A DNA stretch of 58,758 bases from the NCBI GenBank assembly GCA_016874035.1, contig VGVM01000009.1:1-58758 (forward strand), read 5' to 3'. Position numbers and translations under genes: made by a program. This stretch comes from Gemmatimonadota bacterium (GTDB taxonomy: Bacteria; Gemmatimonadota; Gemmatimonadetes; Gemmatimonadales; Gemmatimonadaceae). The notes beneath the pieces are model-generated. The model saw nothing but the letters and a program-made list of their open reading frames with translations. It ran no database searches and had not been told where the DNA came from. Positions 6,983 to 27,607 of the stretch are shown one piece after another (the first letter of the stretch is position 1; the number at the start of each line of letters is the position of its first letter).

Positions 6983-9900
6983 ATGAGTGATTCGCTGCCC
7001 CGCACGCTCGTGCGGGCTCTCGTCCGTGCCGTCGCGCTGTCAGTTCTTGTCGCGATTCCGGCACTCGCCCAGGGCACCATCGTCGGCCGCGTCGTTTCCG
7101 AGGAAGGCAAGCAGCCCCTCGGCGACGTCCAGCTGCTCGTCGAGGGCACGACGATCGTGACCACGACGAACGCCGAGGGACGGTTTACGCTTCGCAATGT
7201 GCCCGTCGGGCCTCGCGTAGTGCGTTCCTTCCGCGTCGGTTTCACCCCGCAGAAGAAGCCGGTCACGATCGTCAGTGGCCAGGCGGCGACGCTCGAGTTC
7301 GAGATGGTCGCCTCGATCGTGAAGCTGCAGGAGGTCGTGACGACGGCGACCGGCGAGCAGCGGCGCGTCGAGCTCGGCCACGCGGTCGCGACCGTTGACG
7401 CCGCGAAGAAGATCGCGGAGGCCCCCATCAAGAACATGGGTGACCTCCTCGTCGCGAAGGCGCCCGGCGTACAGGTGCTGCCGGCCAACATGACCGGCGG
7501 CGGCAGCCGCGTCCGCATTCGTGGCACCAGCTCCTTCTCGCTCTCGAACGACCCGATCTACATCATTGACGGCATCCGGATGACGTCGACCTCCGCCGGT
7601 GGCATCGGCGTGGGCGGTACGGCCCCGAGCCGCGTGAACGACATCAACCCGAACGAGATCGAGAACATCGAGATCGTGAAGGGACCGTCGGCGGCCTCGC
7701 TCTATGGCACGGACGCCGCGAACGGCGTCATCGTGATCACCACCAAGCGTGGTCGCGCGGGCCGCACGAACTGGAACACGACGTACGAGCACGGCAAGAT
7801 CGCCGACCTGAACCAGTACCCGACCACGTACGCGATCCTGGGCAAGACGCCGGGCAGCACGACGCAGCGTCGCTGCTTCACACGTGAAGTCGCGTCTGCC
7901 GGGTGCGTGGTGGACAGCACGACATCGCTGAATATCTACGACGACCCGTGGACGACCCCGCTGAAGCGCGGTCAGCGCGACCAGATGGGCGTGCAGGTAA
8001 ACGGCGGCACCGAGCAGACGCGCTACTTCATGTCGCTCGACGTCCAGAAGGAAGTGGGCCCGTTCGGCCTGCCGGCCATGAGCAAGTTCCGGCTGGACTC
8101 GCTGAACACGAAGATCGAAGACCACATGAAGCGGCCAAGCCAGCTGGAGCAGGGCTCGTTCCGCACGAACGTGAATGCGGCGCTGAGCCCGAACCTGGAT
8201 GTCGGCGTGACCAGCATGTTCACCCGCCTCGAGCAGCGGCTGCCCCAGGTGGACAACAACGTCAACAGCTTCTGGTACAACGGCATGATCGGCCCCGGCT
8301 TCAAGGGCGCCGGTCCCGGCTACACGGGCATCGGGACGCTCGGCCAGCCGTTGTATGGCTGGGCCGGCTTTACGCCGACCGAGATTTTCCAGCGTCTGGC
8401 GCAGCACGGCGTGCAGCGCACGATCATCGGGACGAACATCAACTACCGTCCGACGAACTGGATGGCGGTGCGCGGCGACTTCGGCGTGGACCTCACCAGC
8501 CGCACCGACTACGGCCTGCAGCGATTCGGTGAAGGACCCGATTTTGGCCAACAGCGGCAGGGAACGGTGACCGACGCCCGGGGCAGCACGCGCAACATGA
8601 CGGCGAATATCAACGTCACGGGCACCTGGGTGCCGCTGCCGTGGCTGAACTCGAAGACCACGCTTGGCACGCAGTACGTGAACTTCAACAACTATACGAA
8701 CTCGGCCGGCGGGACCATCCTCCCGCCCGGCGCGCAGAATGCCGGCCAGGCGACGACCCCGAACGTTTCGCAGGGCACAACGCTGGCGAACACGCTCGGC
8801 GTCTTCGTCGAGGAGCAGGTCGCCCTGTACGACCGCTTCTGGGTGACCGCGGGCGTCCGGACCGACCAGAACAGCGCGTTCGGCCAGAACTTCCAGCGCG
8901 TGTACTACCCGAAGCTGTCGGGTTCATGGATGATGTCGGATGAACAATGGTTCCCCGAGTTGCCGCTGCTGAGCAGCTTCCGGCTCCGCACGGCGCTCGG
9001 GTATGCCGGCCAGCAGCCGGGGCCGAACGACGCGCTCCGCACGTTCGCGACGACTTCCACCAGTGTTGCCGGGACCGATGTCAGCGGCCTGCTGTCGAGC
9101 GCGCTGGGCAATCCGGATATCAAGCCGGAGCGCACACGCGAGTTTGAGGCCGGTTTCGAGGCCAAGGTGTGGGACAGCCGGGTCAACATTGACCTGACGT
9201 ACTACAACAAGAAGAACACGGACCAGCTCTTCCAGCTGCCGATCGCGGGTTCGGCCGGCACGGCCGTGACCAGCGTGCTCACGAACCTTGGCGCCACGCA
9301 GAACACCGGCATCGAGGCGCTGATCAACATGCAGGTGATCGACACGCGCGACTTCGGTTGGGACCTCACGCTGTCGGCGTCGAAGAACGCCAACAAGATC
9401 GTGACGCTTGGCTTCAAGCCGAATGGCGATACGATCCCGTCGATCGGCGTGAACACCACGGTCCAGCAGCGCAGCGGCCTGCCGCTGTACAGCTACTGGT
9501 CGCGGCCGTTCACGTACACGGATCCCGACGGCAATGGCCTGTTGAACTCCGTGGACGTCACGGTGGACTCCGTCTGGCGGTTCATGGGTTACTCGCAGCC
9601 ACGTGATGAAGTGTCCATCACGAGCGGACTCGAGCTCCTCAAGCGTCGGCTGCGCATCACCATGCTTGGGGACTACAAGGGCGGTTCGAACCTGTTCAAC
9701 AACGAATCCGGGTTCCTCTGCCAGCAGTCGGTGTCGTGCCCGTACATCTCCACGCTCACCGCCTCGGTCTACGACCAGGCGCGCGCGCTGGCCTATCGCG
9801 ATAAGGCACCCCTCAACACGGCGTGGGGCTTCATCGAGCAGCTGCAGTTCTGGCGCCTGCGCGAAGTCTCGGCGGCCTACAACATGCCAGACCGCTGGGC

Positions 9901-27232: not shown

Positions 27233-27366
27233 GGCCCGCCGCGGAATCGGTAAGTCTCGCGGAATTCGGGTAACGCATTTCCGCCTCCAACTGGCGATCA
27301 TGCTCAGCGGAGGTAGCGAGAAGCGTTCTTTCAGGTTGTCGCCCAGCCCGTCGTGTACGTGCGCGT

Positions 27367-27450
27367 ACCCGAATGGCGGAACTGGTAGACGCATACGCCT
27401 GACAGACGTGTGCCCGAAAGGGCGTGCGGGTTCGAATCCCGCTTCGGGTA
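27367..27450 (+). tRNA. Leucine-type (class II) tRNA with anticodon GAC
   Basis: The 84-base sequence folds into a complete cloverleaf. The acceptor is ACCCGAA with TTCGGGT, and the discriminator is A at 27450. The D-arm GCGGAACTGGTAGACGC is typical of bacterial tRNA-Leu. There is a long variable arm (GCCC, GAAA loop, GGGC) and a T-arm GCGGG with TTCGAAT and CCCGC. The anticodon loop reads CTGACAG, so the anticodon is GAC, which is a valine anticodon; one base change from GAG (leucine) would explain it. The base pair under the loop is C-A instead of a Watson-Crick pair, and the first acceptor pair is A-U rather than the usual G-C. CCA is not encoded. The class II body and D-arm say leucine; the anticodon says valine. 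Confidence 0.88.
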
Positions 27451-27501
27451 CGGCCTCCGGCTACCACCTTGACTGCTATGGTTCGTTCAGTACTATCAAG
27501 C

Positions 27502-27541
27502 CACGTCTGTCAAGCGTGTGCCTTCGGCCTCATCGCCGAAG
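27502..27541 (+). other. Inverted copy of the tRNA anticodon segment plus a small hairpin
   Basis: CACGTCTGTCA at 27502-27512 is the exact reverse complement of TGACAGACGTG at 27400-27410 in the anticodon arm of the upstream tRNA. It is followed by a hairpin with a seven-base stem, CTTCGGC at 27522-27528 pairing with GCCGAAG at 27535-27541. Both lie between the tRNA and the terminator and would be part of its primary transcript. An 11-base match may be chance. Confidence 0.45.
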
Positions 27542-27547
27542 CACGAA

Positions 27548-27583
27548 CCCCCGCCAAGCACATGCTTGGCGGGGGTTTCGCTT
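27548..27583 (+). terminator. Strong Rho-independent terminator after the tRNA (probably bidirectional)
   Basis: CCCCCGCCAAGCA at 27548-27560 pairs perfectly with TGCTTGGCGGGGG at 27563-27575, followed by TTTCGCTTT on the plus strand. It ends the tRNA transcript. The pntB gene converges on it from the other side, and on the minus strand the stem is followed by a weaker TTCGTGCTT, so it may stop both. Confidence 0.85.
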
Positions 27584-27607
27584 TCGCGCTCACGACGATC
27601 TGCTGGC

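Follow-up and report, generated by a model that had tools for sequence, protein, structure and literature searches.

The chimeric tRNAs closest to the one described here are the nev-tRNAs of nematodes (PMC4300185) and the tRNA-ProX of actinomycetes (PMC11415595). The nev-tRNAs combine a Leu-type variable arm (V-arm) with non-Leu anticodons, are charged with leucine in vitro and cause no detectable mistranslation; they are animal genes, and the sections available describe no antisense partner for them. tRNA-ProX resembles the present element in being bacterial, in having a body and an anticodon that disagree, in occurring with several anticodons and in sometimes having an unusual residue 33. 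It has, however, a proline body and a dedicated paralogue, ProRSx, whereas here the body is Leu-type class II and a single ordinary LeuRS is found; the text consulted makes no mention of an antisense RNA.

Amongst toxin-antitoxin systems, the module would share with those of type VIII (SdsR/RyeA and CreTA; PMC12737573, PMC8501985) the use of two RNA partners, translation being the likely target. In CreTA, the small RNA CreT uses a tiny ORF to sequester a rare tRNA, and CreA, a CRISPR-repeat-like antitoxin of a cas locus, directs Cascade to repress it (PMC8501985). In contrast to such a mini-ORF toxin, the candidate toxin here is itself a complete tRNA whose anticodon has been switched, and its partner is predicted to pair directly with the anticodon arm. 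As judged from the sequence, the gene for this partner is adjacent and has its own promoter, and recognition appears to be specific, with self pairing exceeding all permuted pairings and with the modules of one genome being orthogonal. In terms of class, the tRNA/antisense module would belong with the RNA-RNA toxin-antitoxins of type VIII (PMC12737573). Type I systems of the hok/sok kind also have an antisense small RNA with its own strong promoter, adjoining a less accessible toxin transcript, but the module described here has no toxin protein or ORF and the target is a tRNA. We know of no toxin that is a tRNA, type VIII toxins included, and to our knowledge no small RNA is dedicated to the anticodon arm of a single tRNA. 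In the open-access literature, which was the scope of our search, no report of tRNA-antisense pairing of this kind was found.

Structure of the locus

The window, that is the whole stretch of 58,758 nucleotides that was analysed, belongs to a draft genome (G000) of 191 contigs and 3.08 Mb. ARAGORN places a tRNA with the anticodon GAC at 27367-27451 of the window, and the Rfam tRNA model scores 27367-27450 at 47.4 bits, the lowest of the 43 tRNA scores in the genome. The acceptor stem, read directly from the sequence, has 7/7 pairs beginning with A1-U72, the D-arm is of the Leu type (TGGCGGAACTGGTAGACGC), the anticodon loop is CTGACAG with a C31-A39 mismatch beneath it, the V-arm stem is GCCC/GGGC and the T stem has 5/5 pairs. 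The features of a tRNA-Leu are thus present (A73, A15:U48 and, as seen in the alignment, the long V-arm and the D-loop GG), with the exception of a Leu anticodon, in place of which stands GAC. Identity as a tRNA-Val was rejected since it would require a class I body without a long V-arm. The sequence-only reading had described a Leu body and a Val anticodon on one tRNA; this was borne out, each of the structural details it gave was confirmed, and the chimeric tRNA is real beyond reasonable doubt. That reading ended at the tRNA, and the promoter, antisense RNA and terminator that follow it (Table 1) had gone unnoticed.

Table 1. Features of the tRNA/antisense locus (positions in the window)
Feature	Position	Strand	Basis
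Promoter-like pair GTAACG (27270-27275), 20-nt spacer, GATCAT (27296-27301); proposed tRNA promoter	27270..27301	+	Common to chimera loci
Class II tRNA with a Leu-type body and the anticodon GAC (Val); putative toxin	27367..27450	+	ARAGORN, Rfam, alignment
tRNA segment (anticodon arm) pairing with the antisense RNA	27391..27410	+	SW duplex
Sigma70-like promoter TTGACT-16-TACTAT, for the antisense RNA	27469..27496	+	9/12 matches, promoter scan
Antisense stretch CACGTCTGTCAAGCGTGTGC; putative 5' end of the proposed antitoxin, an sRNA of ~80 nt	27502..27521	+	Complement of tRNA 27391-27410
Intrinsic terminator, 12-bp hairpin then TTTCGCTTTC	27548..27585	+	Fold -27.3 kcal/mol, z=-6.5

Promoters, terminator and leader

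The promoter scan finds the downstream promoter of the window where 0.1 would be expected by chance, and the predicted transcription start abuts the antisense stretch. Over 21 loci, the sigma70-like promoter between tRNA and antisense has a peak at a 17-nt spacer (z=12); some promoters are weak relative to the consensus (7/12). The terminator of the window was not called by a simple terminator scan. In the cases inspected the antisense genes end in a terminator, and that of the window may serve the converging pntB transcript as well. There is a strong likelihood that the antisense RNA is a separate transcript.

Upstream of the chimera tRNAs the motif RTRACR-N20-YANNNT is over-represented only at a spacing of 20 (z=7.5, 18 loci); the ordinary tRNAs in the genome of the window showed no such motif. 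It could mark one regulator or an alternative sigma factor for all modules. Since the promoter elements of the tRNA and the antisense gene differ, the two may be under different control.

In the loci with Arg- or His-type anticodons the leader forms a conserved hairpin with compensatory changes, the loop of which (TCGCAG, TCACAG or TCGCGG) is complementary to the greater part of the anticodon loop and tracks it even in the two tRNAs with C33. In L178-L189 a flanking stem, GACTCG/CGAGTC (CCAACC/GGTTGG in a third type), spans the tRNA. No clear complement to the anticodon was seen in the leader of the window itself, and an Rfam search of leader and antisense found no known element beyond the tRNA. 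The leader hairpin, together with the two loci that lack U33, would suit a non-decoding role, for example as a tRNA-like scaffold or aminoacyl donor, with the antisense regulating folding or processing. Such a role is nevertheless rather unlikely, as U33 is kept in 27/29 chimeras, the anticodons remain intact sense anticodons and the antisense pairing is centred on the anticodon, which would be unneeded outside decoding.

Pairing and co-variation

In the window, 19/20 positions of the antisense stretch are paired with the tRNA, including a perfect run of 11 nt (SW). Local complementarity scoring was used in place of RNAduplex on whole flanks, as the latter chains pairs without a loop penalty. 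Across the chimera modules, the start of the antisense gene holds a perfect complement of 11-21 nt to its own anticodon arm, with about 20 nt paired overall; the longest downstream complement is 11-18 nt in most loci of the genus and 21 nt in L169, whereas in ordinary tRNAs of these genomes (n=101) it is only 5-9 nt. The antisense usually lies 40 to 80 nt 3' of the tRNA, and at about +95 to +99 in two loci. The duplexes span the anticodon (34-36) in the first 19/19 Gemmatimonadota chimeras as well as in L151 (Phycisphaerae), L158 and L169, and over 30 distinct loci tRNA positions 28-36 are paired in 90-100%.

Up to four Watson-Crick pair types are found per stem position across the 30 loci. 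Where two loci share flanking genes (G008:C218 and G016:C3), they differ in the anticodon stem, and the antisense has changed in step. Over 21 loci the scores of each tRNA with its own antisense summed to 926.5, against a maximum of 597 when partners were permuted 20,000 times, so that 0/20,000 attained the observed value; 21/21 antisense stretches fitted their own tRNA best. There was no cross-match among the three modules of the window's genome, nor among the three of G008, all of which have the anticodon GCG. The loci had been gathered by the tRNA pattern only and not by downstream complementarity. By these comparisons tRNA and antisense strongly co-vary, the paired architecture is close to certain, and we hold it to be very highly probable that a co-evolving antisense gene lies behind the chimera tRNA. 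Both genes, their pairing and co-variation, the promoter, the terminator and the within-genome specificity can all be read at the level of sequence.

Recurrence of Leu-bodied chimeric tRNAs

The genome of the window has two further Leu-type class II chimeras, one with a His anticodon (GTG, on C32) and one with an Arg anticodon (GCG, on C40). Within the genus the chimera anticodons are GCG, GTG, CGC and GAC; family and phylum scans add chimeras with Ala, Asp, Gly and Pro anticodons, so that the Leu-bodied chimeras of relatives overall have Arg, His, Ala, Asp, Gly, Pro and Val anticodons. Named records include L085, L113, L158, L167 and L169 in Gemmatimonadota and a single case, L151, in Phycisphaerae. 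The stems are well preserved, with 5/493 pairs (1%) mismatched, and we take the chimeras to be intact leucine-type tRNAs. In the genome-wide pattern scan most matches were not chimeras but tRNA-Leu genes whose anticodon loop is interrupted; those from Alpha- and Gammaproteobacteria (for example L064, L082 and L108) carry inserts of about 200-400 nt there, likely group I introns.

That the tRNA of the window is a decayed tRNA-Leu(GAG), one of the possibilities the sequence-only reading had raised, is contradicted by the intact stems and by the Leu(GAG) genes of the genus, which lie elsewhere and differ in body; since body and location both differ, it is not a decayed Leu(GAG) copy. The count of Leu and Val tRNAs which that reading had proposed shows an ordinary class I tRNA-Val(GAC) elsewhere in the genome (C24), with Val TAC and CAC, and four Leu isoacceptors (TAA, TAG, CAG and CAA), but no separate Leu(GAG) among the tRNAs of the draft assembly. 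In relatives Leu(GAG) lies inside a conserved His-Trp-Glu-Glu-Asp-Leu-Thr cluster. Besides Leu(GAG), the His, Trp, Asp, Glu(TTC) and Thr(CGT) genes of this cluster are also missing from the assembly of the window, so that the absence of Leu(GAG) likely reflects an assembly gap.

A more general form of this explanation is that the chimeras are decayed tRNA-Leu genes or spare tRNAs adrift, the downstream match being a coincidence or a local inverted duplication. The C31-A39 mismatch in the window and two remnants, G004:C3 without a T arm and G016:C2 with half a gene, would be in keeping with decay. The low rate of mismatched stem pairs, the co-varying antisense in about 30 loci, the fixed promoter spacing and the independent anticodons are not, and as a general explanation decay is refuted by the permutation and co-variation tests; we consider it most improbable.

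After the pattern had been recognised, an antisense was found in 6/8 new chimeras of the phylum scan (Asp GTC, Ala CGC twice, Arg GCG, Gly GCC and Ala GGC); none was found at L343 and L351. Of the Leu-type chimeras on viral contigs, 42 in number, two (L280 and L230) had a convincing module that extends over the anticodon region, L243 had a match to the V-arm only, and 39/42 had no antisense. In L280 (positions 1-420 of an IMG/VR contig, Gly GCC), tRNA, T-tract, TTGACT-17-GATAAT, antisense and terminator all lie within 200 nt. L280 and L230 thus extend the occurrence of the module to contigs that are classed as viral. Most Leu-type chimeras of other phyla and of phages had no antisense (including L061, L063, L069 and L087) within the 350 nt on both sides or the 160 nt downstream that were searched. 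The antisense module is accordingly distributed over the Gemmatimonadota chimeras, with two exceptions, one Phycisphaerae and a few viral contigs. L069 (4043-4379, Azospirillum cavernae) is a tandem pair of Leu-type tRNAs with the Ala anticodon TGC and an encoded CCA, without antisense, and possibly a different phenomenon. The IMG/VR records L215-L333 contain phage-type contigs with Leu-like tRNAs of 75-77 nt that have the anticodon Gln TTG or His GTG and no antisense.

Charging and codon meaning

Bacterial LeuRS recognises A73 and the tRNA core and ignores the anticodon. A73 and A15:U48 are present in 29/29 chimeras scored, and no dedicated LeuRS paralogue was found, with one LeuRS over the cut-off in 15/18 genomes and none in the other three. 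Identity bases of several of the synthetases that correspond to the anticodons are missing from the chimeras, namely C73 for His, G73 for Asp, U73 for Gly and G3:U70 for Ala, the last with two exceptions, L349 and L230, which AlaRS might charge; for L349, with the anticodon CGC, this would give the codon's own amino acid. Since LeuRS reads A73 and the core, and since the only LeuRS of each genome in which the gene is assembled is an ordinary one, the chimeras should carry leucine. The charging by LeuRS that the sequence-only reading had raised is supported in this way, and we consider it probable.

A stable reassignment of GUC was rejected: opposite the GTC codons of pntB, the aligned residue is Val, encoded by other codons, 71 times and Leu 11 times, which indicates that the genetic code is unchanged at GTC. 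If active, the three chimeras of the window's genome would between them misread 9.5% of the codons in a sample of seven genes.

Proposed function

We propose, with somewhat better than even confidence, that the identity-switched Leu tRNA is toxic when free and is neutralised by the anticodon-arm antisense RNA, the two forming a new class of toxin-antitoxin. Through its Leu body the tRNA would be loaded with leucine by LeuRS, and when free it would read foreign codons (here GUC/GUU), so that leucine would be misinserted at common codons and the proteome poisoned. The promoter behind the tRNA would drive an RNA of about 80 nt, the 5' end of which is complementary to the anticodon arm and would cover the anticodon and the flanking stem, either blocking decoding or marking the tRNA for cleavage. 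Should the short RNA be lost, through loss of the element or shut-off of transcription by host or phage, the stable tRNA would persist for longer and take effect. The anticodon would be free to change provided that the antisense follows, which would explain the many anticodons. We infer leucine charging, toxicity, neutralisation and the trigger from this arrangement; the antisense is most simply viewed as an antitoxin since a constitutively active mistranslating tRNA is expected to be deleterious. The chimera need not be toxic, however, since Leu-charged V-arm tRNAs of nematodes show no detectable mistranslation (PMC4300185). Also against the proposal are the loss of U33 in two loci, the weakness of some promoters, the G3:U70 pair of L349 and L230, and the Leu-type chimeras that have no antisense.

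The anatomy of the module would be identical if the tRNA were instead an inducible and beneficial one, which under stress inserts leucine where Val, Ala, Arg or His is encoded, with the antisense as its off-switch. In favour of such regulated mistranslation, the upstream element with the 20-nt spacer suggests a common control, and in tRNA-ProX mistranslation encoded by nature has a precedent (PMC11415595). Regulated mistranslation would, however, predict one conserved programme, whereas the presence of the module is patchy and genomes with several modules have mutually specific ones; the anticodons cover at least seven amino acids and one locus retains the antisense only. An addiction or defence element fits these observations better, and we regard a beneficial programme as unlikely, though less so than a non-decoding role.

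If the toxin-antitoxin proposal is true, the module would be a protein-free bacterial addiction or defence module made from the translation machinery. It would explain the persistence of mismatched tRNAs, would represent a natural exploitation of the neglect of the anticodon by LeuRS, and could offer programmable RNA switches for codon meaning.

Genomic context and turnover

The sequence-only reading had suggested that orthologous loci be compared. In relatives there is no tRNA beside pntB, and the element of the window is absent there. The neighbours of the locus are housekeeping genes, with no mobile genes among the ten ORFs scanned in the window. Synteny among chimera loci is mostly lacking: both flanks are common only to G008:C218 and G016:C3, and G004:C152 shares one gene.

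Two loci have lost part of the tRNA. In G016:C2 (L191, minus strand, near 8390-8660) the 5' half of the tRNA is gone while promoter, antisense and terminator are intact, and the antisense predicts that the lost loop was CTGGTAA (Thr anticodon GGT). On both sides of the locus are repeated sequences that resemble an inserted repeat. In G004:C3 the T arm is missing from a tRNA with the Val anticodon CAC. That the tRNA goes first and the antisense stays, as in G016:C2, is what would be expected of a tRNA that does harm on its own. The roles could conceivably be reversed, with the downstream RNA a toxin that sequesters a host tRNA and the chimera a decoy antitoxin, much as CreT toxins work by tRNA sequestration (PMC8501985). 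This would be hard to reconcile with an antisense that tracks the chimera's own stems, which vary between loci, and with the survival of the antisense in G016:C2 without an intact tRNA, and we give it very little credence.

Elsewhere in the window, positions 1681-1792 match a TPP riboswitch at 54.9 bits, just over the Rfam gathering score.
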